Shown here piece by piece: positions 2,571 through 18,879 of a stretch of DNA of 26,282 bases. The notes beneath the pieces are model-generated. The model ran no database searches, had not been told where the DNA came from, and saw only the letters and a program-made list of their open reading frames with translations. The translations under genes were made by a program, and so were the position numbers. Each line of letters opens with the position of its first letter. Position 1 is the first letter of the stretch. Source of the stretch: a virus; IMG/VR virus record IMGVR_UViG_3300050026_000789, positions 1 to 26,282 of that record. One strand, given 5' to 3'.

Positions 2571-3302
2571 ATGCCAGCAGTCGCGGCGAAGAGAACTCGC
2601 AAGATCATCAGGTCGCCCAAACCTCCGAAGCCGCCGGGTACGGAACTGGCCATCGTGTCGCGTGGGATTGAGCGCGCTGGCGCAAAGGCGCTGATGACCA
2701 AGCCGACGCCGGCGGACAAGCGCCGCTGGTTCCTGGTTGAAGGCAACCAGAAGACCGTCGAGCAGGTGGCCGTCGAAGAGGGAGTCAGCTCGCTGGTGGT
2801 CCAAACCTCGATCGACCGCATTCGGTCCTGGATGTTCCGCAACCAACTCCCGGTCCTGACCGTCAGCATGGTCGAGACCATCCTTGGCCAGCTTGAGGGA
2901 ATGAACAAAGTCTTCCAACAGGGGATGAAAGCGGAGAAGGTCATCTTCGTGGACAAGGAAACCGGCAAGGTCACGAAGACTCCCGACACCGCAATGCGCT
3001 TGAAGACCATCACCGAGATCCGTGGCCTGATGGAGACGGTCCAGCCGCGGACTCCGCTCGTGCAGACGAACCAGCAGTTTATCAACGGCGTTTCGGGTGG
3101 CGGAAATGGGTACGGACCCAGCATGAGTTTCGAGGCGATCCTGCGCAAGAAGCGCGGTGAGGTCGGCTTGGCCAACGAGCAGGAAATAGCGGAAGCTGAG
3201 ATCGTGACTGCCGAGGATGAACTCTCCAACGAGTTCAAAGACTTTGGCGGGGATGAAGACGACGGCGAAGAAGACGAGGACGAAGATGAGAGTTCCTCGT
3301 AG
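2571..3302 (+). CDS. Probable small terminase subunit (DNA-binding)
   Basis: The 243-residue product has a basic N-terminus (KRTRKIIRSPKPPKPP), a helix-turn-helix-like segment at about 61-90 (KTVEQVAVEEGVSSLVVQ followed by a basic helix), a helical middle and an extreme acidic tail from about 219 (DDGEEDEDEDE). Small terminases recognise the packaging site on phage DNA and hand it to the large subunit. The main support is position: its 3' end overlaps the start of the large terminase by 17 bases. The sequence itself is not diagnostic. Translation starts at ATG 2571, three bases after the preceding stop, with AGGTG upstream. Confidence 0.65.
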   Translation: MPAVAAKRTRKIIRSPKPPKPPGTELAIVSRGIERAGAKALMTKPTPADKRRWFLVEGNQKTVEQVAVEEGVSSLVVQTSIDRIRSWMFRNQLPVLTVSMVETILGQLEGMNKVFQQGMKAEKVIFVDKETGKVTKTPDTAMRLKTITEIRGLMETVQPRTPLVQTNQQFINGVSGGGNGYGPSMSFEAILRKKRGEVGLANEQEIAEAEIVTAEDELSNEFKDFGGDEDDGEEDEDEDESSS

Positions 3303-5418
3303 AGACACCTCACTCAACGACGCCATCGAAGTGCTGCAAGAGCATTACATCCGCTGTGACCAAAACATCAGTCGAGCCTGGGCGGAACTTCCCCAAGACG
3401 GACTTGTCTTCATAGAATCCGAAGTCCAGAAGGCGCTTGACCTGCGCTACTATCTTGAGAACTACCACTTCATCACAACAGAGCAAGGCGTACAAAAATC
3501 TCTCTATCCATTTTGGGACCACCAGGAAATTGTCTACGAGGCGATGTGCGAGGAGTGGGCAGAGAACGGCTACTGCAAGATCATCATACTCAAGCCGCGA
3601 CAGACGGGAATCTCAGTGTGGACGGCAGCTGCCATGTTCCATCGAACTATCTTCACGCCGCACTGCTTCACGATGATTGTCGCGCAGAACGAAACCACAT
3701 CGGAGCATATCTACAAACTCAGCTTGAATGCTTATTCTAATTTGCCATGGTGGCTCAGGCCGGAGTATATGTATAAGACGAAGAAAGGGGCGATTGAGTT
3801 TCAGAGGTCTGACGAGAAAGAAAGACTGGTTGACCCTGGACTCGGTTCCGCTCTGCAGGTTTCTCCGGCGACACAAACTTCAGGCGTGGCTATCGGACGA
3901 ACGATAAGATGTCTCCATGCGAGCGAAGTTTCCCGCTGGCCTAACGACGAAATCTACGAAGGTGACATCAAGCCGTCGATGAACGCGCTCGATACCTTCC
4001 AAGTTTTTGAGTCAACCGGATATGGCCGTCAAGGTTTGTTTTATGACCAGTGGTGCGCGGCAGTGGATGGCGACAGTGATATGCGTTCGGTCTGGATTCC
4101 AGTTTACAAAGTCAAGAAATACTATCTCCCGCTCAAGAGCACATTCGAGTTATCCGAAGAAGAAACGACGTTCAACAAGCGCATCAAGCGGGAAGAACGC
4201 TTCCAGATACCGGATGAGTTTTGGAACTTCCGTCGCGTTCGTCTGCGCGCGGCGAAGCGTTCAGGGACAAAGGCTGGATTCCTTGAGTCATATCCTCTTA
4301 CTCCGAACGAAGCATTTCAATCGTCAGGCCTTTGCGCGTTTGACCGCGACTCTCTCGAATGGCAGGAGATCAATAAAGTCTGCAAGCCGCTATATGCTGG
4401 TGAGATCAGTTTGGTTTCGATGGAACCGCCAAGATACAACACCGATGACATCATGCCGGTGGCGGACGATGAGATACTTCCGAAGCGCAAGTCGGGGCGC
4501 GGCGGCAAGAGAATGCACATCTGGGAGATGCCGCAGCGTGGCGACACTTACTATGTGAGCGTTGACGTTGCGCTTGGAAACGGAGGTGACTTCTCGGTTG
4601 CGATAGTATGGCGAGCCGGTCAAGGCATGGAGCCGGACACGATGGTTGCATCCTGGTGGGGATGGATTCCGCCAAAGAAGTTTGCGCACGTCGTCGCGGC
4701 AATCGGCCTCTTCTACAACGGGGCTGAGGTGGCTGTCGAGTACATGAAGGATGGCATCACGACTGGCAACGAACTGCGCGACATGGATTACCCGAACCTC
4801 TATCGCCCGCAGTTCAAAGACCGTCTGACACATCAAGCCAGCAACTATCTTCACTGGTTGACCAACTCGAAGACCCGCGACGAGATTATCGGATCGATGA
4901 ACGAGGCGCTGCTCGACCACACGGTTGTTATTCGTGACGCGGACTTGCTCGATGAGATGGTGGACTTTGCTTCGTTGGACGGGGATGGACGGTCTGAGGG
5001 ACAGGGGAACGAAGACGACGGCGTGATGAGCGCGATGATCGGCCTCTACTGCCTGCGCGAAACGACCAAGCACCTGAAGACCAACGTGGCGACTGAGGCG
5101 ATTCGGCAGACGGGCGAGCTTCACGTCTACGGCGTCTACGACAACATCATGCGCCAGCGGGGCCAGTACAACACCGAGGCCGAGGCGCTGAATATGATCG
5201 AGGGTAAGGCGGGTTGGAGGGTTCAGGCGATTCTGGTTTGCAACGCAAACACTTTATTTTCGCCGATCTTTGACGCCATGGGTGCAGAGCATGATTTACA
5301 CTTAAGACAGGGAATGCACTCGACGGAGATCACCCCGGAGATTGTGTGGGCCTATAAGACGGCGATGTCCCAGGCTGGGCCGGGCCGGGGACTGGAAGAC
5401 TACGGCGAGGATTGGTAA
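3286..5418 (+). CDS. terL: Large terminase subunit (packaging ATPase-nuclease)
   Basis: The 710-residue protein pumps DNA into the prohead and cuts it. The ATPase half shows a Walker A-like KPRQTGIS at about 103-110, a Walker B region RCLHASEVSRW at about 208-218 with the catalytic Glu at about 214, and a likely coupling motif FESTGYG at about 241-247. The RNase H-like nuclease half begins with SVDVALGNGGDFSVAIVW at about 425-442 (first Asp about 427). EYMKDG near 485-490 and GNEDDGVMSAMIG near 574-586 supply further acidic residues. The start at 3286 is preferred over an in-frame ATG at 3217 because GAGGA precedes it at five bases and the upstream residues are an out-of-frame reading of the small terminase. 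About 110 residues after the nuclease form an extension. Codon composition is AT-richer in the first half than in the second. Confidence 0.95.
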   Translation: MRVPRRDTSLNDAIEVLQEHYIRCDQNISRAWAELPQDGLVFIESEVQKALDLRYYLENYHFITTEQGVQKSLYPFWDHQEIVYEAMCEEWAENGYCKIIILKPRQTGISVWTAAAMFHRTIFTPHCFTMIVAQNETTSEHIYKLSLNAYSNLPWWLRPEYMYKTKKGAIEFQRSDEKERLVDPGLGSALQVSPATQTSGVAIGRTIRCLHASEVSRWPNDEIYEGDIKPSMNALDTFQVFESTGYGRQGLFYDQWCAAVDGDSDMRSVWIPVYKVKKYYLPLKSTFELSEEETTFNKRIKREERFQIPDEFWNFRRVRLRAAKRSGTKAGFLESYPLTPNEAFQSSGLCAFDRDSLEWQEINKVCKPLYAGEISLVSMEPPRYNTDDIMPVADDEILPKRKSGRGGKRMHIWEMPQRGDTYYVSVDVALGNGGDFSVAIVWRAGQGMEPDTMVASWWGWIPPKKFAHVVAAIGLFYNGAEVAVEYMKDGITTGNELRDMDYPNLYRPQFKDRLTHQASNYLHWLTNSKTRDEIIGSMNEALLDHTVVIRDADLLDEMVDFASLDGDGRSEGQGNEDDGVMSAMIGLYCLRETTKHLKTNVATEAIRQTGELHVYGVYDNIMRQRGQYNTEAEALNMIEGKAGWRVQAILVCNANTLFSPIFDAMGAEHDLHLRQGMHSTEITPEIVWAYKTAMSQAGPGRGLEDYGEDW

Positions 5419-6224: not shown

Positions 6225-8018
6225 ATGGCCGACTTCAACGAAAGACCGGAAAAGGCTCTGGAGAGGGAAGTTCTCTCCTGGTCAGATGCTGTCTATGAAG
6301 AAGCGGAGCGCGATCTTGCGGAATCCCGTGAGATCAAACTCACCTCTCGTCTCATCGACTACATCTCCGGACAACAGTGGAATGCGAAGTCCCGGTACGG
6401 CCGGTCTCGGCCCACGGTCAACCGCCTCTTCCGCCAGTTCGTCGAGATGGCCGGACTGCTCACGGACATCGAACCCGATTTCCAAGTCAAGTTTCACAAC
6501 GAGGACGAGGAGTTCGCCAAGCTCCAGGATCTGCTCAATGAGATGATCGGGATGTGGGCGCGGTTCACCGACTTCGAGGCGGAACTGACTCAATCGGTGA
6601 TGTGGGCCTTGCTGCATACCGGCTACGCAAAAATTCAGTGGAATTCGACGCTCAACAACGGGATGGGTGATTGCGAGTTCATGCCGCTCGGCCCGCTCAA
6701 TGTGATGACGATCGGCGCGGGCGCTCGGATTCAGGATGATGAGTGCGTCATCGCGCGCTGGCCGGTCACCCTCGAAGCATTGAAGCGCTCGTATGGCGAA
6801 CTGGCCGACGGTGTAATTCCAGACCTTGAAGGCAACGAGCCGACCGGGGAGATGTCCCGGCCCGGCAAGATGTCGCAGTCGTCTTGGGTGCGGTTGAAAC
6901 CGGCTCTCAAAAAGTTGCTGGGCAAGAAGGTGGCCGACGGGAAGCGGTCGCGCTATCCCAAAGCCATGCTCAAGCAGTTTTGGTTCAAGGACGGGTCGAA
7001 GAACGAAGGCGGCGAGACGAAGTGGGTTGGCGATCAGCAGTACAACTGGTCGTATCAGGTTGAGCCGGGATGCCTCTGGTATCCTCGCGGCCGGTTCGTT
7101 ATCACAGCCGGCGGCAAACTTCTACAGGACGGTCCAAACCCCTACTGGCACGCAATGTTCCCCTTCGCCAAGCTCCGGCTGATTCGGGTTCCATGGTCTC
7201 CCAACGGAGCCAGCCCCCTTGAGCCGATCGCCATGATGAGCGACATTGTGAACCGGATCAACGGCGGAATCATGGATATGATCAGGGCATCCATCGAGCC
7301 GCGCATGGTGGCGCCGAAGTCAGCGTTTGCCCAGAGCGTGTGGGATTCGATGGACCCCGGAGCGCCCGGCGGAAAGATCATGTACAACAACAATGCGCCG
7401 AAGTCCCCTGAGTTTCCCAAGCCACCAGAGCTCCCAGCTTACGTGCTCCAGATGAAGCAGGATGTGGAGAAAGAGCAGGACATGACCTCTGGCGCGGCGG
7501 GTATCAATCAGGCTGCGCAGAAGAAACAGGTTCCCGGCGGAGACTCGCTGGAGATGATTATGAATTCCCGGTCCATTCCCATCCGGTTCATGGGCCGCGG
7601 GCTACACAGTTTCCTCACCGAAGTTGGATCGATGGTCACAGCCAACAAGATGCAGTTTGAAACCTCCAGGAGCCGCATCAAGAAGTTTGGCGTCAAAGGC
7701 CTGACGGACGCCGACTTCGAGCCGCTTTACGGGCAGTGGCTGGAAAAAGGGATGGAGCCGGAAGAGTTCGTGCGCCAAGCGATCTTCTCGATCCGCAAGG
7801 GAAGCCTGCTGGCCATCGAGAAGCAGGACGAGGTGCAGGTGGCGTTCGTCATGCGGAAGATGGGTGATCTTTCCCGCAAGGGAATGTATCGCAAGCTCGG
7901 AGTTCCCAAGGCTGACGTGGACAAGATTGAGGCGGAACTCCTCGAAGAAGCCAAACAAAAGATTGCTCTGGCCGGCGCGGCCGGCGCGACACAGCACCCG
8001 CATGGCGGGAAGAAGTAG
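6225..8018 (+). CDS. Portal protein
   Basis: The 597-residue product has the size and features of a phage portal. An N-terminal region with RPTVNRLFRQFVEMAGLLTDIEPDFQ and a middle with GPLNVMTIGAGARIQDDECVIARW come first. The core has RVPWSPNGASPLEPIAMMSDIVNRINGG, then a Pro-rich segment KSPEFPKPPELPAYV and DMTSGAAGINQ, followed by a helical C-terminus. Portals form the dodecameric ring through which terminase drives DNA. Position after terminase and before the scaffold and capsid genes agrees. The C-terminus ends in Ala/Gly-rich repeats (AGAAGAT). The start lacks a Shine-Dalgarno site. The stop is one base from the stop of the convergent minus-strand gene, so there is no room for a terminator between them. 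Confidence 0.88.
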   Translation: MADFNERPEKALEREVLSWSDAVYEEAERDLAESREIKLTSRLIDYISGQQWNAKSRYGRSRPTVNRLFRQFVEMAGLLTDIEPDFQVKFHNEDEEFAKLQDLLNEMIGMWARFTDFEAELTQSVMWALLHTGYAKIQWNSTLNNGMGDCEFMPLGPLNVMTIGAGARIQDDECVIARWPVTLEALKRSYGELADGVIPDLEGNEPTGEMSRPGKMSQSSWVRLKPALKKLLGKKVADGKRSRYPKAMLKQFWFKDGSKNEGGETKWVGDQQYNWSYQVEPGCLWYPRGRFVITAGGKLLQDGPNPYWHAMFPFAKLRLIRVPWSPNGASPLEPIAMMSDIVNRINGGIMDMIRASIEPRMVAPKSAFAQSVWDSMDPGAPGGKIMYNNNAPKSPEFPKPPELPAYVLQMKQDVEKEQDMTSGAAGINQAAQKKQVPGGDSLEMIMNSRSIPIRFMGRGLHSFLTEVGSMVTANKMQFETSRSRIKKFGVKGLTDADFEPLYGQWLEKGMEPEEFVRQAIFSIRKGSLLAIEKQDEVQVAFVMRKMGDLSRKGMYRKLGVPKADVDKIEAELLEEAKQKIALAGAAGATQHPHGGKK

Positions 8019-8019
8019 A

Positions 8020-8190
8020 TTATTTTTTGCTTTTTATGAACGCATCCAAGTCACTTTCGCAAATGCGCCAGCATTTTTTACTGAGATGGACTCCAATCAA
8101 ATCTTTTGACCTCAGTAGACGGTAAACAGAAAATACTCCAATCTGAAGTCGAGATGCTACTTGCGCTGGTGAAAGATAGAAGTTTCCCAT
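8020..8190 (-). CDS. Small helix-turn-helix protein, excisionase/MerR-like
   Basis: The 56-residue product reads MGNFYLSPAQVASRLQIGVF followed by SVYRLLRSKDLIGVHLSKKCWRI and ESDLDAFIKSKK. This is the usual winged HTH_17/excisionase fold: an LSPAQVASRLQIG helix-turn-helix, a recognition helix VYRLLRSK, a short wing and a C-terminal helix. Such proteins are excisionases or small regulators. The frame extends six codons upstream to TTG (8208), but the ATG is preferred. It is the only minus-strand gene in the late block and is AT-richer than its neighbours, so it looks like an independently transcribed moron. No integrase is seen in the window. Confidence 0.85.
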   Translation of the reverse strand: MGNFYLSPAQVASRLQIGVFSVYRLLRSKDLIGVHLSKKCWRICESDLDAFIKSKK

Positions 8191-8196
8191 GCAAAT

Positions 8197-8226
8197 ATAG
8201 TACAACAATGCTCACCATTGCTACAA
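8197..8226 (-). promoter_or_regulatory. Candidate leaderless promoter for the helix-turn-helix gene
   Basis: Read on the minus strand, TTGTAG (8226-8221) and TACTAT (8202-8197) are spaced by 18 bases, and the ATG begins six bases after the -10. No Shine-Dalgarno sequence is present. The -35 matches only weakly. Confidence 0.45.
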
Positions 8227-8370
8227 ATCTTTCACTTTCTCCCATAAACCCCTACTCAACTGGATCAAAAAGTGATTCACAGGTGCGATATTGTTTTCGT
8301 GGATAGGGAAACATCCTACTGACCGTGGTGAAGGCCACGTTAAAAAACCGCTCCAAGAAGGAGGACGCCT

Positions 8371-8442
8371 ATGGCTCGCAAAGGTCACAAGCGCGGTCAC
8401 AAGTCGCGGAAGTCTCACCGCGGCTCCAAGCGCGAGAAGTAG
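8371..8442 (+). CDS. 23-residue highly basic peptide
   Basis: A perfect Shine-Dalgarno site AAGGAGG (8358-8364) lies six bases before an ATG. The frame encodes MARKGHKRGHKSRKSHRGSK plus REK and stops at TAG 8440-8442. Eleven of the 23 residues are Lys or Arg and three more are His, with GHK repeated. Nothing hydrophobic is present. The strong ribosome site and place directly before the capsid block make it likely to be translated. A nucleic-acid-binding or packaged peptide is possible. I know of no family. Confidence 0.65.
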   Translation: MARKGHKRGHKSRKSHRGSKREK

Positions 8443-8473
8443 TTCTCGTGCAGTCAGACACACAACTTTAACC

Positions 8474-8493
8474 GGGGCTGGTTCGCCAGCCCC
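8474..8493 (+). other. Intergenic GC hairpin with TTCG loop
   Basis: GGGGCTGG, TTCG, CCAGCCCC forms a perfect 8-bp stem with a tetraloop. It sits 20 bases before the 8514 start and is not followed by a T-run, so it is not a standard intrinsic terminator. It may be an mRNA processing or stabilising element. Confidence 0.75.
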
Positions 8494-8513
8494 CATCACC
8501 TCGGAGAATTCCC

Positions 8514-8699
8514 ATGGCAAAGAATGATCGCGTCAGCGAAGAGACTTTTGGCCCTACCGTTACGGCCCCCAAGATGACCGGCGGAAAGATCGCGCTCTTC
8601 GGCCACACGATTCACGACGGCGAGGCGATTCCGTCTCGCGGTTACAGTGTCAACGTGAAAACCGGGCACCCGGTAAACGGGCGCGGAAAGAGCAACTAA
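8514..8699 (+). CDS. Small hypothetical protein, 61 aa
   Basis: GGAG lies eight bases before the ATG. The protein is polar and beta-prone, with KIALFGHTIHDGEAIPSRGY in its centre and a basic, Gly-rich C-terminus. I do not recognise it. It is bracketed by the hairpin at 8474 and the next gene, which starts two bases after its stop. Confidence 0.65.
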   Translation: MAKNDRVSEETFGPTVTAPKMTGGKIALFGHTIHDGEAIPSRGYSVNVKTGHPVNGRGKSN

Positions 8700-8701
8700 C
8701 C

Positions 8702-9076
8702 ATGCCAATGCCAGCCCCCACTGCCGCCCCTCCGAATTTCTACGACAACCTGCCTGCGGGCGGAGATGCCGCAGCGGGCGGACCTCCTCCGAAGAAGCCG
8801 GGCGGCGAGTCCGACTCCGACGAGGAACTGATGAAGGGGTTGACCGGCGTGTACCGCGTTCTCAGTAAGATGGTCAAGATCAAGAAGGAATTGAAGCCGG
8901 GCATCGACAAGCTCAAGGACGGCATCAAGGAATTGGTTGTCCAGGGTCTGAAGAAAGACCCGAAAGATTTGGATTCCGGCGAAGAAAAACCGGCGGAGTC
9001 AGCACCACCGGAGCCGCCAGCAGGCGGGCCTCCATCACCTCCACCTTCCCAAACAGACGAGTCGCACGCAGCTTAG
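8702..9076 (+). CDS. Proline-rich hypothetical protein, 124 aa
   Basis: Starts two bases after the preceding stop, with only a weak GGAAAGAG upstream, so coupling is likely. The N-terminus is Pro/Ala/Gly-rich and disordered (MPMPAPTAAPP), a central helical region of about 45 residues is Lys-rich (VLSKMVKIKKELKPGIDKLK), and the tail is again Pro/Glu-rich. Position before the scaffold candidate suggests an assembly role. No domain is recognised. Confidence 0.65.
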   Translation: MPMPAPTAAPPNFYDNLPAGGDAAAGGPPPKKPGGESDSDEELMKGLTGVYRVLSKMVKIKKELKPGIDKLKDGIKELVVQGLKKDPKDLDSGEEKPAESAPPEPPAGGPPSPPPSQTDESHAA

Positions 9077-9094
9077 TGCGAAAGGGAGTAGTGT

Positions 9095-9814
9095 ATGGCA
9101 TTGCTTGACGATTTGAAGGGGATTTTAAGCCCCGCAGAATTCGCAAAAATCCAAGGGAACTCGGCGGTGGCGACCAGCCTGGCCCGCGGACAAGAACTCA
9201 TCAGTTTCTATGACGGCGATGAACCGCCGGCGAATACCGTGGTTGACCCGCCCGCGGCGCGCAGTACACCGCCTCCGGCAGCCGCTGGACAATTTGACCT
9301 GAGCGCGATCGACGGGATGCTTGACGCGAAGCTCGGCAAGATCAACGAGATTGTGGATGCGCGAGTTGCCGATGTGGTGAAGACGCGCGGCGACGAGTTG
9401 GTCAACAACGCCGTGGGTATCGCAGTTCGGCGCGCCGACGAGTTGAACCGCATCTATGGCCGCCATGAACGCGAAGTGGGCAAGCCGTTCAACTCCGCCG
9501 ACTTCACCGCGTACCTGGAGAAGCCGGAGAATAAGGCGCGTGGATTCCGCACGATGACCGATGCTTACGAGGCCTATGTGGGTCCGGTTGTGCAAGAGCG
9601 CACCATCGAAGCGGAAGTCACGAAGCGCGTGAAGGCGCAGTCTGGCACGGCAGGCGTACCGGGAACCACTCCGGCACCGGCTACCAACAGCAACATTCGG
9701 ATGTTTATCAACCGCGGCAAGACCGGCGCGGATGGTGCTCCAACGACCGGCGCGGGGCGCGCGGCCGCAATGCTCGACAGAATGCAGTCTCGTCAGTTGG
9801 AAATGGCGAGCTAG
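9095..9814 (+). CDS. Probable scaffolding protein
   Basis: The 239-residue product is soluble and charged. It has an N-terminal helix (MALLDDLKGILSPAEFAKIQ), a Pro/Ala linker at about 45-65, a long helical region at about 67-165 and a Gly/Ala/Thr-rich C-terminus ending in AAAMLDRMQSRQLEMAS. Scaffolding proteins are helical, of low sequence conservation, and are normally encoded directly before the major capsid gene, as here. The assignment rests on this and not on sequence recognition. GGGAG lies six bases before the start. Confidence 0.55.
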   Translation: MALLDDLKGILSPAEFAKIQGNSAVATSLARGQELISFYDGDEPPANTVVDPPAARSTPPPAAAGQFDLSAIDGMLDAKLGKINEIVDARVADVVKTRGDELVNNAVGIAVRRADELNRIYGRHEREVGKPFNSADFTAYLEKPENKARGFRTMTDAYEAYVGPVVQERTIEAEVTKRVKAQSGTAGVPGTTPAPATNSNIRMFINRGKTGADGAPTTGAGRAAAMLDRMQSRQLEMAS

Positions 9815-9847
9815 GCAACAACAAAACTTTAACCACGGAGGCCAGTG

Positions 9848-10822
9848 ATGGCGCTTAACATCAATGACATCAGCGCAGTAACGAAGCAGGAGATCGTCCC
9901 CGAACTCGTGGACGAATACTACAAGGTATCTCCAGTTTTCGTTCAGATCTTCAAGGGTGATACGGTCAAGCCTTTCCCTGGTGGCCTCTACATCCAGCAG
10001 CCGATTCAGTACGCGCCGCTGAAGGCTGGCCCGTTTGCTCCCGGCTCAACCTTCGACATCTCCTATGTCTGGACGGACACGGCGATGACCTTCGCAGTGA
10101 AGTTCTATTACGCGAACGTGACCATTCAAGGCACGCAGTTGCCGATCAACATGGGCAGCAACGCGGTGATGAGCTTTGTCGAGGAGAAGATGATTAACGG
10201 CTCCCAGGCTTTGGCCCAGGCGCTGGCAATCGACATCTACAACGACGGCCAGGGAACCGTGTCCTCGCAGATTGCGCTGGACGGCCTGCTCGCCGGGTAC
10301 GATGACGGCACCAACTACCCGACCTATGGCGGCCTTCCCCGCGCCGCGATCGGCTCAGGCGCCTCGACCGGCATCAATGGCTACTACCAGAACGTCGGTG
10401 GCCCGCTGTCGATCACCGCGCTCCAGAAGGCGTATGGCCAGGGAACCTTTGGCAATCGCCAGCCGAATCTGATTGCGACCACGCAGTCGATTTACAACCA
10501 GCTCTACAATAAACTGGTTCCGGCGCAGCGCGTCAACGACAACATCATGGTTGACCAGGCGCAGAACATTGGCTTCACAGCCATCCGGTTCAACAACCAG
10601 CGGCTTGTGGTTGACCAGTATGTGCCCACGGGTTACGTCTTCGGCATGAACACCGACTTCCTGAACGTCCACATCTCGGACCATGAGTTGTTCGGCTTCG
10701 GGTTCACCGGCTTCAAGGAACTGCCGAACTCGGTTGACTCCGCCGGCCAGCTCTGCTTCGGTGGCAACATGGTGGTCAGCGCGCCGCGCTTGGGCTTTGT
10801 ACTCGCCGGAATCACGGGCTAG
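9848..10822 (+). CDS. Major capsid protein
   Basis: Translation starts at ATG 9848, six bases after GGAGG; a GTG at 9845 is in frame but less likely. The 324-residue product begins MALNINDISAVTKQEIVPEL and continues with the pattern of HK97-fold coat proteins: a loop rich in Gly/Pro (GGLYIQQPIQYAPLKAGPFAPG), a beta strand pair, VTIQGTQLPINMGSNAVMSF, then a spine helix FVEEKMINGSQALAQALA. TYGGLPRAAIG occurs near residue 160 and ends in a P-domain with GFTAIRFNNQRLVVDQYVP. Length and position after the scaffold agree. A GC hairpin follows the stop. Confidence 0.88.
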   Translation: MALNINDISAVTKQEIVPELVDEYYKVSPVFVQIFKGDTVKPFPGGLYIQQPIQYAPLKAGPFAPGSTFDISYVWTDTAMTFAVKFYYANVTIQGTQLPINMGSNAVMSFVEEKMINGSQALAQALAIDIYNDGQGTVSSQIALDGLLAGYDDGTNYPTYGGLPRAAIGSGASTGINGYYQNVGGPLSITALQKAYGQGTFGNRQPNLIATTQSIYNQLYNKLVPAQRVNDNIMVDQAQNIGFTAIRFNNQRLVVDQYVPTGYVFGMNTDFLNVHISDHELFGFGFTGFKELPNSVDSAGQLCFGGNMVVSAPRLGFVLAGITG

Positions 10823-10836
10823 TAGCGATTTGAACG

Positions 10837-10856
10837 GGGCGGGGTGATTCCCGCCC
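10837..10856 (+). other. Intergenic GC hairpin after major capsid gene
   Basis: GGGCGGG, GTGATT, CCCGCCC gives a perfect 7-bp stem 14 bases after the capsid stop. The sequence after it is ACAAGAATTTT, with no immediate T-run, so at most a weak terminator; a 3' stabilising structure is an alternative. Confidence 0.75.
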
Positions 10857-10897
10857 ACAAGAATTTTGCAGTGGCGCAACGGCGCTGGAGGCTTCAC

Positions 10898-11560
10898 ATG
10901 GCTCTCGGAACAGAATTTCCGATCATTACAACTGGCAACTTGTACACCTCGATCGACACGTATGCGTCCACGATCACGACGCAGCCTCCGGTCAATTGTC
11001 CGAGTTATCCCAACGGCGCGCAGAATCCCATTGGCTCGGCGTATCTGCTCGCGCCCGGCGCATTCTCCGGGCCGACCGTTTCCCAGACCTATGCCGCAAA
11101 CGGATGGGGCGCTCCGCTGATTGTGCGCTATGTGCGCTACAACTCGACGACCGCCGCCGCCATGCTCGCGTATCCCGCTCCTGTCTACTGGACGGATGAG
11201 ACCTATACGACCGTCACAGGCACCTTCTCCGAAGGCAACCCGGCGTCCACCGGCAACCTGAACTCGCTGGCCGGATGGCTGTTGCCAAACTTCACGTCGC
11301 TCAGCAAGACCGGCGCGGCTTCGACCACGGCTCTGAATGGCAACTTCTGCTTCATCGCCACCAAGGGTTTCTTGCCGGCGGCTGCAGTGTGTGCTTCGAC
11401 GGCGGTCGGTGATGCGCTGATTGGCGCATCGGGCAACTTCATCGTGACCCGCACGGCGTCCGGCTCGGCTCCGCTCTGCTCGAAACTTGCGCTCGCGTTG
11501 TCGGCCGTCACCGCCGTCGTCACCGCCGACATCTGGATCAACTGCGATCCCACGTTCTAA
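10898..11560 (+). CDS. Capsid-associated or decoration protein candidate, 220 aa
   Basis: The start at 10898 is chosen because GGAGG lies six bases upstream. The product is rich in Thr, Ser, Ala and Gly, nearly free of Lys, and beta-prone (MALGTEFPIITTGNLYTSID, IVTADIWIN near the end). Such composition fits a virion surface protein. It lies directly after the capsid gene and is flanked by GC hairpins on both sides. Five or so Cys residues are spread through it. I do not recognise a family; decoration function is inferred from position and composition. Confidence 0.6.
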   Translation: MALGTEFPIITTGNLYTSIDTYASTITTQPPVNCPSYPNGAQNPIGSAYLLAPGAFSGPTVSQTYAANGWGAPLIVRYVRYNSTTAAAMLAYPAPVYWTDETYTTVTGTFSEGNPASTGNLNSLAGWLLPNFTSLSKTGAASTTALNGNFCFIATKGFLPAAAVCASTAVGDALIGASGNFIVTRTASGSAPLCSKLALALSAVTAVVTADIWINCDPTF

Positions 11561-11566
11561 TCGGAA

Positions 11567-11593
11567 ACCCGCGCGTCGGAGTGATGCGCGGGT
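11567..11593 (+). other. Intergenic GC hairpin
   Basis: ACCCGCGC and GCGCGGGT form a perfect 8-bp stem with an 11-base loop, six bases after the preceding stop. No T-run follows. The ribosome site of the next gene (AAGGAG) begins a few bases downstream. Confidence 0.75.
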
Positions 11594-11614
11594 CGCAACC
11601 AAGGAGCAGCAGCC

Positions 11615-12877
11615 ATGTCTTTGACGCTCACAAAAGTTCCTGACAGCCAGCAGAGTGCGGGTGTGTCTCAGGTCAGCACGCTTTATCAGGCGCAGCCCGC
11701 CACGGCTGATTACCCGTCTGGCGGATACGTTATCCCCGGCGCTTTGACGACCAGCACGACCGTCATCGGAAACTTCGGTGCGGAGTTCTGCTACGGGATG
11801 GATGTGCAGGGCGGAAATGCGGCCTCTGCTGCCTATATGCCGATCTTCGTGTTCCCGGCGGGGTCGTTCGGAACCACTCCTTCACCGGCAACCTCGGTCA
11901 CCATGCTCATATCTCCTAACGGAGATGTCTCCGGAGTTCCGCTTGGCCTTGGAGCAGTTTCCGCCGCGAAGTCTACCACCATCGGTGTGACCGGAACGCC
12001 GACCAGTTTGGTCACGGTGGCCATCGCCAACAACCTCAAGGTGGGCCAGTTCATCTATTTGAACAGTTTCACCGCTGGCGCGGGCCTGAATGGCACCATC
12101 GTCCAAGTCGTTTCGGCAACTGCCACCGGCTTCACGGCCTACGCCCCCGGCGCGGCCAACATCACGGCGGCCACGGCGGACGTTACCGGCACCTATCAGT
12201 TGGTCCAGGCTGGCACAGGCAATAACCTGACCACCGGAACCTCTGTTGCCGTTACCAACGGCGCTTGCACTTCGGCCTCCCCTTCCGTCATGACGATGAC
12301 TTGCGCGAACTCTTTCGTGCCGGGCCAGTTCGTTGTTCTGCAGGGGTTTACCGCCTCCTCACTCACCCCGTTCAACGGCGTTCTTGCCCAGATCCTGACG
12401 GCATCCACGACTCAGTTCACCGCCAACTGGTACTACACCGGCGGCGCGCTGAATGCGGCTGAAACCACGGGTACGGCCTCTCTTCTCGTCACGGCTGGCA
12501 ATGCGCCGGTCTCGGCACAACTCGCAGCCCCGGCCACCACCAACACCACGCTTGTTGCGCCTGTCGCTGGAACCAGCCCCGGCACGGTGACGCTCGCCGC
12601 AAAGAACTCGCTCATCGCCGGAAGCGTCATCATCCTTCAAGGGCTTACCGCTGGCGCGCAGATGAATGGCTCGATCATGGCCGTCCAAACTGCAACCTAT
12701 GCGACTACGACCGTGCTTGGATGGCATTTGACTGGCGCTGTTGGTTCCACTGGTGACACGACCGGAACCATTATGCAGCTTGTCACCGGCACGCCGACCA
12801 CCACGCCGCAGGTTGCTGCGGGAACCGATCTCAGCGGTTGTATCTGGTTCCTGGATTTCCTGACCGGCGGAATGTAA
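11615..12877 (+). CDS. Triplicated beta-module structural protein, 420 aa
   Basis: After an N-terminal region of about 125 residues (MSLTLTKVPDSQQSAGVSQV...), the protein holds three copies of one module at about 131-197, 222-292 and 321-390. Each has the order: a beta strand (VTVAIANN, MTMTCANS, VTLAAKNS), a turn (LKVGQFIYLNSFTAG, FVPGQFVVLQGFTAS, LIAGSVIILQGLTAG), NG, a second pair of strands ending near FTA or VLG, and TGT..LV. The modules probably form small beta barrels displayed on the virion. Composition is Thr/Ala/Gly-rich with almost no Lys or Arg. Its place after the capsid block suggests a head fibre or decoration protein. AAGGAG lies eight bases before the ATG. Confidence 0.7.
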   Translation: MSLTLTKVPDSQQSAGVSQVSTLYQAQPATADYPSGGYVIPGALTTSTTVIGNFGAEFCYGMDVQGGNAASAAYMPIFVFPAGSFGTTPSPATSVTMLISPNGDVSGVPLGLGAVSAAKSTTIGVTGTPTSLVTVAIANNLKVGQFIYLNSFTAGAGLNGTIVQVVSATATGFTAYAPGAANITAATADVTGTYQLVQAGTGNNLTTGTSVAVTNGACTSASPSVMTMTCANSFVPGQFVVLQGFTASSLTPFNGVLAQILTASTTQFTANWYYTGGALNAAETTGTASLLVTAGNAPVSAQLAAPATTNTTLVAPVAGTSPGTVTLAAKNSLIAGSVIILQGLTAGAQMNGSIMAVQTATYATTTVLGWHLTGAVGSTGDTTGTIMQLVTGTPTTTPQVAAGTDLSGCIWFLDFLTGGM

Positions 12878-12891
12878 GGCATCAACCAAAG

Positions 12892-12917
12892 AGGGGCGGG
12901 GTCCAGATCCCTCCCCT
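12892..12917 (+). other. Intergenic imperfect GC hairpin
   Basis: AGGGG-C-GGG pairs with CCC-T-CCCCT around a short loop, 15 bases after the preceding stop. It resembles the hairpins at 10837 and 11567 in place and GC content and again lacks a T-run. Confidence 0.65.
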
Positions 12918-12949
12918 TGAAAGGCTTCCATATCGAGGTGAGGCGGGAG

Positions 12950-12955
12950 TACAAT
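12950..12955 (+). promoter_or_regulatory. -10-like TACAAT before the HNH gene
   Basis: TACAAT matches the -10 consensus at five of six positions and lies six bases before the ATG at 12962. GGGAG is 12 bases from the ATG, too far for an ideal ribosome site. The -35 region is weak. A gene-specific promoter would fit a mobile endonuclease gene. Confidence 0.45.
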
Positions 12956-12961
12956 TCGATT

Positions 12962-13690
12962 ATGACTTCCGCCTCCATTTTCGCCAACTGCCCGTCGAGA
13001 CAAAAGACCATCGAGAAGACCTGCCCGTCATGCGGACAGGTCTTTCTTGTCAGCAAGAAGAAGATCGATCAGAAGACGTGCAGCCGTACCTGTTCCTGCG
13101 CTTTACGCTTGGGGAGAGTCGGAGATATTGCGGTAAAAACTTGCCCTGTATGCAAAAAAACATTTCGCTCCCATAAGGATGCAACTCGTAAGTATTGCAG
13201 TCCGGGATGCTGCAACGTGGCGGGAGAGAAGAGAGAAGCCAGATGGAACGTAGCTCGTGAATTGACGCGCGCCAAATGTGCTGTTTGCGGGAAAGAATTC
13301 CTACCGGCGAATCCTAGAAAGAAAATCAACCAGATAACTTGCAGTCGAGAGTGCTGGTTTGCGTATTATCGTGACGATTCTGGAACCGTGAGAGATAGCG
13401 CAAAAGGATACAAGCGCGTTAAAACAGAAGATGGAAAATGGCGGCAGGAGCATTGTGTAATAGCTGAAAAAATGATAGGCAGACCTTTGACGAAAGAAGA
13501 GGTTGTTCATCACAGAAACGGAAAGAAAGGGGATAATCGTAAAGAAAATCTCCAAGTGGTTACAAAATCAGAGCATTCGACAATCCATCAAATGGCGGAG
13601 AGGATAGGAAACACTCTTATGGCGCAATGTATAGGACTTCCAATTCTTGCCGGAGAGTGGATTCATCCCTTAGAAGGATGCGAGGTGTAA
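12962..13690 (+). CDS. Free-standing HNH endonuclease with three zinc fingers
   Basis: The start at 12962 replaces an upstream GTG- or ATG-type start that would run through the hairpin. The 242-residue product has three repeats of a CxxC...CxxxC zinc module, at about 21-44 (CPSCGQVF), 61-83 (CPVCKKTF) and 106-131 (CAVCGKEF). A homing-type HNH domain follows at about 163-210: EHCVIAEKMIGRPLTKEE, VVHHRNGKKGDNRKENLQVV and TKSEHSTIHQ, with the catalytic His pair at 183-184. Such enzymes cut DNA in related phages lacking the gene and spread it by repair. The gene is clearly AT-richer than its neighbours and interrupts the structural operon, which supports recent insertion. Its stop is one base before the start of the next gene. 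Confidence 0.92.
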   Translation: MTSASIFANCPSRQKTIEKTCPSCGQVFLVSKKKIDQKTCSRTCSCALRLGRVGDIAVKTCPVCKKTFRSHKDATRKYCSPGCCNVAGEKREARWNVARELTRAKCAVCGKEFLPANPRKKINQITCSRECWFAYYRDDSGTVRDSAKGYKRVKTEDGKWRQEHCVIAEKMIGRPLTKEEVVHHRNGKKGDNRKENLQVVTKSEHSTIHQMAERIGNTLMAQCIGLPILAGEWIHPLEGCEV

Positions 13691-14732: not shown

Positions 14733-15086
14733 ATGAGCAAAAACATTTGTCAGCAGTGCGAGAAGGTGGTCTACCGGCTGAGGTTCATGGTCGAGCAGAA
14801 GAAGTGGCTGGGTGTCGATTGCGGGTGTGTGGCGGCGGATCGGGTGCCGAGGACAACTCTCAATCCCTTCAAAATCCGGTTCGACCATGTGGCAGATGAA
14901 TTCGGAAATCATCTCGAAGTCGAGAGCATCCGCCAACTCGAAGCCGCTGAGAAGCGCCTTGGTTTCCAAAGCGTGGTCCTCAACTCGGACGCGCAGAACT
15001 TTGATGACCCTCCGCAGCAGCGCGAGGTGACGGTAAGCGATCTTGTCAAGAGGAAATTCTCTCAAGTGAGGCAAAGGTATGCGTGA
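14733..15086 (+). CDS. Cysteine-motif hypothetical protein, 117 aa
   Basis: GGAG lies six bases before ATG 14733. The N-terminus has CQQCEKVVYRLRF and, about 15 residues on, DCGCV, so a single zinc site is plausible. The rest is helical and charged (SIRQLEAAEKRLGFQ, DLVKRKFSQVRQRYA). Its final codons overlap the start of the basic peptide gene at 15079. No known function. Confidence 0.7.
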   Translation: MSKNICQQCEKVVYRLRFMVEQKKWLGVDCGCVAADRVPRTTLNPFKIRFDHVADEFGNHLEVESIRQLEAAEKRLGFQSVVLNSDAQNFDDPPQQREVTVSDLVKRKFSQVRQRYA

Positions 15087-15240
15087 AGACAAAGAAACTC
15101 CAGAAATGGAAGCTCGTAGCCACTCGTCGAGGTTCTTGAAGAAGGCAGCCAGGCTTTCCTCCAAGCGGAAGACGGTGAAGCGCAAAACCAAGAAGCGCAA
15201 GTTGCATCGCGTCACGAAGCGCAGAGCGGGGAGCAGGTAA
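15079..15240 (+). CDS. 53-residue highly basic peptide
   Basis: ATG 15079 lies seven bases after GAGG and overlaps the end of the preceding gene by eight bases. After an acidic start (MREDKETPEMEARSHSSRFL) the peptide becomes extremely basic: KKAARLSSKRKTVKRKTKKR, then KLHRVTKRRAGSR. About 20 of the last 35 residues are Lys or Arg. It ends at TAA 15238-15240, two bases before the next ATG, and fits the gap between two genes exactly. It probably binds nucleic acid or is packaged with it; no family is known to me. Confidence 0.68.
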   Translation: MREDKETPEMEARSHSSRFLKKAARLSSKRKTVKRKTKKRKLHRVTKRRAGSR

Positions 15241-18186: not shown

Positions 18187-18879
18187 ATGGCCACTCCGAT
18201 CAGCACGCTCGCTGCGAATATCCAGTCTCGTTTGGAAGAAATTCCAGGCGGGGCTGGGCAGTGGTGGTCTGCGCAGCTCGAGATATACTCGGCGATCATG
18301 GAAGCTCAGTCGGACTTGCTGCTGCTCGTCGGCCGCCCCACGCAAGCCGTGAACATCCCTCTGACGCTGACGGCGAACTCGGTCTGGCAATTCGTGCCGA
18401 AAGGCTACCTGGCAATCACGGACATTCAGGGCGCGGGAAGTCCGCTCTACAAAGTGAACCTGTGGGATCTCGACTACCTGCAGACGAGTTGGGGTTCCGA
18501 CTGGACTCAGGATGTGGATGACGTTGCGCGCCGCTGGGCACCGATCGGCTTCAATATGTTCGTGGTCCATCCGGCACCGTCCACACCGCAGACTGTCAAT
18601 GTGACCGCAATTCAGTATCCGACGAGCGACGTTTGGCCGTATACTGGAAACGAGGGAGTGGTCTTCGAGGACAACTTCTTTCAGTTGATCGAGGAGTACG
18701 CGGCCTTCTACTGCCGGATCAAGGAACTCGGCGGGGAGTTCCAAGAAGGCGTAAAACTTTTCGAGCAGTACCTGCAGGGAGCGAAGCGCATGACGGCGAT
18801 TCAGGACTTGCGCGACCCGCTGCTTTTCACGAGCGGATATGGTGCGGCCAACAACATCAACCCAACAACCAAGCGATAG
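18187..18879 (+). CDS. Probable neck/connector protein, 230 aa
   Basis: GAGG lies five bases before the ATG, which is six bases after the preceding stop. The product starts with a helical region (LAANIQSRLEEIPGG, WWSAQLEIYSAIMEAQSDLL) and continues with strands (AVNIPLTLTANSVWQFVP, NMFVVHPAPSTPQTVNVTAI). A C-terminal helical bundle follows (NFFQLIEEYAAFYCRIKELG, FEQYLQGAKRM). That order, an alpha-helical start, a beta sandwich and a helical end, resembles phage head-completion or connector proteins. Exact role is not proven. Confidence 0.55.
   Translation: MATPISTLAANIQSRLEEIPGGAGQWWSAQLEIYSAIMEAQSDLLLLVGRPTQAVNIPLTLTANSVWQFVPKGYLAITDIQGAGSPLYKVNLWDLDYLQTSWGSDWTQDVDDVARRWAPIGFNMFVVHPAPSTPQTVNVTAIQYPTSDVWPYTGNEGVVFEDNFFQLIEEYAAFYCRIKELGGEFQEGVKLFEQYLQGAKRMTAIQDLRDPLLFTSGYGAANNINPTTKR

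Follow-up and report, generated by a model that had tools for sequence, protein, structure and literature searches.

Conserved and covarying RNA structures in the leader and gaps of the capsid gene block of a phage family

What sets the different amounts in which the products of a phage head operon are made? The stoichiometry of such an operon, with hundreds of capsid subunits and few other parts, is usually ascribed to promoters and ribosome-binding sites. We analyzed the capsid block of IMG/VR virus record IMGVR_UViG_3300050026_000789 (26,282 bases, here called the window), in which the head genes all run left to right and are followed by the tail genes after an HNH endonuclease gene. A preliminary description had proposed that four GC-rich hairpins in gaps around the capsid gene, here H1 to H4, stabilise or process the mRNA so that abundant capsid products are made in different amounts. 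Two elements carried the strongest evidence in our analysis, namely H1, the hairpin ahead of gene g8514, and a leader RNA, element E, which is better conserved than the hairpins and was absent from that description together with the tiny open reading frame (ORF) behind it. Relatives comprised 39 loci found through the capsid protein (74-97% identity), five contigs added by profile search (L055, L068, L070, L072 and L073), and one contig from an Acidobacteria bin. Far more distant is Tunturi_1, a cultured Tunturiibacter phage, with 27% identity over 78%.

H1 (8474..8493, + strand) is an 8-bp hairpin with a UUCG loop, identified by folding, alignment and covariation, and lies 9 nt before the Shine-Dalgarno (SD) sequence of g8514 (8514..8699, + strand). 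This gene encodes a conserved 61-amino-acid head-operon protein, which was traced in relatives by tblastn and gave no match in a Pfam search. Hairpins built as GGGGCCGG-loop-CCGGCCCC stood ahead of g8514 in 45 of 45 loci, the window included. The automatic scan passed 44 of the 45, all but L018, but in L014 and L015 it had chosen hairpins other than H1, and H1 was confirmed by alignment in L014 and L018 and by sequence match in L015. Pairs were counted in 22 of the 45 loci, near-duplicates being omitted. In the 20 distinct sequences, all stem cells were paired (160/160), and six of the eight pairs were changed on both sides. The covariation score was 0.442 versus 0.192 for shuffled controls, none of the 500 shuffles reached it, and slid controls gave at most 0.22. 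The shuffle controls ignore relatedness, the slid controls retain shared ancestry, and the two agree. Read from the alignment, this pattern shows selection for RNA pairing in H1.

The loops and the wobble pairs of H1 were also examined. The UNCG or GNRA type accounted for 17 of the 20 tetraloops and for 8 of the 11 distinct tetraloops. The UUCG of the window was replaced elsewhere mostly by UGCG, UACG, GCAA, GUGA, GAAA, GUAA or GCGA, with GACA, UUAG, CAAG and a six-base GUAAAA loop (two sequences) as exceptions. The stem cells contained 13 G-U and zero A-C combinations, indicating that the paired molecule is + strand RNA.

The position of H1 was fixed more tightly on its downstream side. The spacing from H1 to the SD had a median of 9 nt and a standard deviation of 3.3 nt (1.9 nt without L020), compared with a standard deviation of 7.5 nt for the distance to the upstream stop codon (Levene p 0.016), thereby tying H1 to the g8514-scaffold-capsid message, either to initiation on it or to its 5' end. 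Such tight spacing would also suit a hairpin that insulates the g8514 ribosome-binding site from the GC-rich RNA around it. Native accessibility was in fact higher in 17 of 22 sequences, yet in silico shuffling of H1 shifted the mean openness of the SD-start region by just 0.016, and this role was rejected. Because the SD stays open without H1 in silico, stabilisation or active initiation is favoured over insulation, which we consider improbable. Genes of T4 homing endonucleases have ribosome-binding-site hairpins, of which that of seg43(25) lies just upstream of the ribosome-binding site and not over it (PMC2988022). The layout of H1 resembles that of seg43(25); H1 differs in standing before a head gene and in being family-wide.

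Element E (8322..8350, + strand) lies further upstream and was defined by covariation and a covariance model. It consists of a 5-bp stem, a GUGMAGGC region that was invariant or nearly so, and an A-rich tail ending in ACCG. Among 23 sequences, 21 of them distinct, 99% of the stem cells were paired in the distinct rows, and four of the five pairs were changed on both sides, with 32 such cells. The covariation score was 0.618 versus 0.143 for shuffled controls, and slid controls gave at most 0.102. Two further measures did not exceed the shuffles, since the number of pairs with a double change was reached in 270 of 500 shuffles and the number of further pair types in 209 of 500. Variation in almost all of the stem columns is the probable cause. 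The score and its controls, as far as aligned rows can tell, show selection for RNA pairing in E as well. A putative pseudoknot would join the loop GG with the tail CC in 2 bp (8333-8334 with 8348-8349).

With the covariance model, 38 of the 40 sources each yielded a single copy of E, and the misses were Tunturi_1 and L012, a contig that begins within g8702; three further matches in that search had an E-value of 3.8, which is at chance level. In whole records, E occurred once in 9 of 11, and L012 and Tunturi_1 were again the misses. The best score in Tunturi_1 was 10 bits (E 0.65), so that E is absent there or too diverged. Of 297 sampled Acidobacteriota genomes, a single one gave a match under strict filters that may lose weak matches, and this was L074, the contig from which the search had started. 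A DNA-pattern scan for E covering 89 stretches found bona fide copies, having both the stem and the basic ORF, in this phage family alone. Among the newly checked loci, the other matches with at least four stem pairs had no K/R/H-rich ORF, and L075 ends before the position of the ORF. A repeated promoter-like element was ruled out, E being present in a single copy per phage.

The single copy also bears on whether these elements act as DNA, for example as a phage promoter or as a packaging or recombination site. One site per genome near the terminase and portal genes would suit a packaging site, and GNNA loops are stable in DNA too. However, E is unlike a phage promoter set in being single-copy, and the UNCG loops of H1, together with its G-U but no A-C cells, point to + strand RNA, which makes a role as DNA very unlikely.

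No Rfam family matched E above its cut-off. The top similarity was to SAM_alpha, with 20.5 bits in the window and 21.9 bits in L073, and E shares with the SAM-II riboswitch (RF00521) a short stem and an A-rich tail before an SD. The scores fall far under the cut-off of 36 bits, however, the first loop of E is too short where SAM-II has a long one, and the associated genes are structural; E is hardly a SAM-II-like riboswitch at all. The nearest precedents come from T4-type phages, in which a leader pseudoknot of gene 32 and an operator hairpin of gene 43 bind gp32 and gp43 and autoregulate these replication genes (PMC3014915). E resembles these as a phage leader RNA structure upstream of a ribosome-binding site, but the genes behind it are a tiny basic ORF and those of the head, and its pseudoknot is putative. 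Searches of a library of open papers for structured RNA in phage capsid leaders and for intercistronic or tetraloop hairpins, judged mostly from the listed entries, turned up no report of E. We class both E and H1 as novel forms of cis-regulatory RNA in phages, outside any named family.

E ends 18-32 nt upstream of the start of the tiny ORF (8371..8442, + strand), an addition to the gene map in the gap before 8514. This ORF has 23 codons, reads MARKGHKRGHKSRKSHRGSKREK, and is rich in Lys, Arg and His. The ORF and an SD-like motif were present in 26 of 26 sequences examined, with a K/R/H content of 52-65% in all of them. At the same position Tunturi_1 has a Lys-rich, unannotated ORF of 22 codons (L041:4647-4715), read by eye as MAKESKKEMKKEELKKKKSGKK. 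A local hairpin (8430..8451, + strand) surrounds the stop codon of the 23-codon ORF, with the codon in the loop, and was judged by local folds because the alignment was too poor for pair counts. A fold of -11.5 kcal/mol or lower was found at 20 of 23 of these stop codons and at 17 of 171 other stop codons. Looser criteria of at least 5 or at least 8 enclosing pairs discriminated poorly (21/23 versus 7-19 per control gene, and 21/23 versus 82/171, respectively), and the energy criterion alone separated this hairpin from the controls. Upstream of E, a further leader hairpin, P0 (8299..8319, + strand), is suggested by RAGGC...GCCUGA hairpins in relatives (median z -1.34, 14 of 24 at z <= -1). The evidence for P0 is weaker. 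RNAalifold on the leader alignment recovered the E stem and not P0. Tentatively, E, the tiny ORF with its stop hairpin, and H1 may form one new phage riboregulator, in which the Lys/Arg-rich peptide of 20-27 residues, its translation, or another ligand would set capsid translation via E; we regard this as a possibility rather than an expectation.

The four hairpins were then considered as a set. All four stem-loops are real, with energies of -16.3 kcal/mol (8474-8493), -15.9 kcal/mol (10837-10856), -20.9 kcal/mol (11567-11593) and -18.3 kcal/mol (about 12889-12918, with a mismatch in the stem). Each has the GC-rich hairpin of a Rho-independent terminator, and none is followed in the window by a T-run directly after the stem, as the preliminary description had observed. 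Nine gaps of at least 20 nt (805 nt in total) contained three perfect-stem hairpins of -15 kcal/mol or lower, H4 being uncounted owing to its mismatch, versus 0.058 on average and never more than 2 in 500 dinucleotide shuffles. Over the whole window, six hairpins reached -15.8, and 12 shuffles averaged 2.5 (range 1-7). The strength of the hairpins is thus only mildly unusual, and their location is the unusual feature. Other strong hairpins of the window lie outside the capsid block (1832-1863 and 1868-1893) or in coding sequence (18221-18258), and one on the left side, outside the structural genes (1421-1443), is followed by T-rich sequence.

Across relatives, the median z of 70-nt regions was -2.53 before g8514 and -3.51 after g11615, compared with -0.17 for 162 coding windows. 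The later tail gaps, said earlier to have no comparable hairpins, indeed had none, either in the window or across relatives (median z -0.11 to +0.50 in the 70 nt after g13692, g14733, g15608, g18187, g18889 and g19248), although most of these gaps are shorter than 25 nt and leave no space for a hairpin. The gap after the scaffold gene was likewise at the level of the coding controls. A z of -2 or lower was found after the capsid gene in 5 of 24 relatives and after the decoration gene in 7 of 22, the latter count including some coding sequence where the gap is short. The hairpins, presented earlier as one class, are of different kinds: H1 is tied to a downstream ribosome-binding site, H2 and H3 are lineage-specific, and H4 is terminator-like in relatives. 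The covariation that had been called for was strong in H1 and modest in H3. Around the capsid block, there is thus support for functional RNA structure from covariation at H1 and from kept position at H4, and weaker support at H3.

H4 (12889..12918, + strand) occupies a site after g11615 that had a hairpin of -15 kcal/mol or lower in 26 of 27 loci. The exception, L072, has a 25-nt gap, in which a 10-bp stem spans the SD of the next gene. The sequences could not be aligned between distant lineages, and the persistence of the hairpin was established by position. A T-rich run occurs at this site in L010, L014, L017, L018, L038, L068 and others, and Tunturi_1 has a hairpin and TTTT before its tail gene. 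Several relatives therefore resemble a Rho-independent terminator here, with a GC stem and a T-run at a gene-block boundary, and the window's clade differs by having no T-run. Judged by position, H4 marks a conserved, terminator-like head/tail boundary. The T-runs in relatives and in Tunturi_1 would also fit a scheme in which all four hairpins are attenuators, that is, intrinsic terminators with lost or weakened U-tracts. However, in 22 sequences the universal H1 was never followed by a T-run (no more than 3 T per 10 nt), and none followed H2 or H3, making this scheme rather unlikely for the set.

The HNH homing endonuclease gene (12962..13690, + strand; HNH_3 41.7 bits, phrog_1271) directly follows H4. 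The 3' half of H4 in HNH-bearing copies (window, L001, L002 and L016) differs from that in HNH-less copies (L004, L006, L012 and L074) and still pairs, indicating that the HNH insertion abuts and re-forms H4. HNH genes of differing sequence lie directly 3' of H4 in the window and L001, in L002 and L016, in L010, and in L014, an insertion hot spot. In Tunturi_1 and in L023-L025 and L039, HNH genes or pieces lie in the portal-to-leader gap instead. An 11-bp hairpin (12940..12975, + strand) encloses the SD of the HNH gene (GGGAG) within its stable stem and holds the ATG in its loop, as expected for sequestration of a ribosome-binding site and resembling the T4 homing endonuclease genes. The same hairpin is present in L001, L002 and L016, and is unchanged in L002 and L016 although the HNH protein there is only 38% identical. 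In L004, L005, L006, L008, L011, L012 and L074, the homologues of g13692 have no in-frame ATG, GTG or TTG in the stretch from the preceding stop to the aligned N-terminus; ATT or ATC lies 7 nt after GGAGGG, which is itself within a CCCTCC...GGAGGG hairpin. This arrangement suggests AUU or AUC start codons, with an internal GTG start possible in some.

H2 (10837..10856, + strand) is an 8-bp hairpin after the capsid gene, and H3 (11567..11593, + strand) is an 11-bp hairpin after the decoration gene. L001-L008 and L016 share H2 in nearly identical form, with a single variant in the loop; the hairpins of L038 and L070 are unrelated to it, and other relatives have none. Tunturi_1 has a UACG-loop hairpin after its capsid gene. 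H3 is carried by L001, L002, L004-L008, L012, L016 and L019. It was counted in eight rows, of which that of L003 is a 6-nt end fragment adding no pairs; 97.4% of cells were paired and three pairs had a double change over the seven full rows. Among relatives lacking H3, wherever the following gene was locatable, the gap measured 3-23 nt or, with no strong hairpin in it, 48 nt. A short GGCGC-AACG-GCGCY hairpin (10873..10886, + strand) abuts the SD of the decoration gene, and its sequence is kept through most of the group with more than 90% identity in the major capsid protein. The E. coli galE exo-block hairpin is intercistronic, has an 8-bp stem and a 4-nt loop, and sets mRNA 3' ends and stability, as established by 3' RACE and mutants (PMC11925234). 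H1 and H2 share this intercistronic 8-bp/4-nt geometry, and no U-tract is noted for galE. In size, H2 and H3 are like the galE hairpin, which makes it an analogue. H1 differs from it in being tied to a downstream SD, and the hairpins here are predicted from sequence.

What we observed are these structures and their conservation, and from them we infer every effect on mRNA level, mRNA ends and translation. In our proposal, the capsid block would be a transcription and translation unit whose output is set by + strand RNA structures, a reading to which we give an even chance. The compact leader RNA E, immediately ahead of the SD of the tiny ORF, could regulate translation, with a hairpin over the stop codon of that ORF, and H1, about 9 nt before the g8514 SD, would most likely stabilise the g8514-scaffold-capsid mRNA from its 5' side or help to initiate its translation. 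H2 and H3, after the capsid and decoration genes, would most likely block 3'-5' exonucleases in the lineages that have them, and H4 would be terminator-like, probably leaky in this phage, and limit readthrough into the tail genes. By analogy, the differential stabilisation or processing proposed earlier is plausible.

Several observations weigh against this proposal. The two stem 2 pairs of the putative E pseudoknot are invariant (21/21 and 20/21 rows) and give it no covariation support. No sigma-70 promoter was found before P0 and E (Fisher p 0.64), leaving a separate transcript start unsupported. The accessibility gain from H1 is small, and throughout the window's clade H4 has no T-run. Of the H2 gaps, 12 of 43 had a hairpin of -15 kcal/mol or lower, as had 12 of 37 H3 gaps, one of the latter being a coding match in L026; because most relatives are without them, H2 and H3 appear dispensable to the family. 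This absence, and the lack of testable covariation in H2, would fit incidental GC-rich hairpins of one subclade with no function. H3, however, is almost fully paired with double-sided changes, and the gap hairpins outnumber those of shuffles, so that we consider an incidental origin possible but doubtful.

The neighbouring genes place these elements in a head operon. The terminase (3217-5418) and an SU10-like portal gene (6225-8018), both left to right, precede a gene divergent from the capsid operon (8020..8193, - strand) for a small HTH_17 (excisionase/MerR-like) protein (Pfam PF12728, 40.3 bits, cut-off 27; search query 8020-8208), which is kept upstream of the leader in close relatives. 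The major capsid protein (9845..10822, + strand) was assigned by PHROG (phrog_9953, E 4e-24). The product of the next gene (10898..11560, + strand; AlphaFold model, pLDDT 79) models as a capsid decoration or cement protein: the top PDB matches were phage capsid decoration, cement or head-fibre chains from entries titled BB1, HFTV1, Pam3, phi29 gp8.5, TW1 and T1, of which only the best passes E 0.001 (E 8.2e-4, TMq 0.33). The product of g11615 (11615..12877, + strand), a beta-rich protein by its AlphaFold model (pLDDT 73), had no PDB match at E <= 0.001 and may be a head accessory protein. The tail block contains another small Lys/Arg-rich ORF (15079-15240), of 53 amino acids and without a Pfam match. 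These are soil phages, and from the binned contig and Tunturi_1 the host is likely Acidobacteriota, on weak evidence. The paper on the Tunturi phages cautions against linking a host to a viral contig in a bin (PMC11924767), and L074 is likewise a viral-looking contig in a bin.

Altogether, this soil phage family bears conserved, covarying RNA structures at the control points of head-operon stoichiometry, including a leader RNA without an Rfam match above cut-off. These structures are defined sequences for testing RNA-based control of stoichiometry, and their alignments provide strong covariation data on a new RNA motif. To judge from this conservation, RNA structure is probably the means by which such phages set the output of their capsid genes.

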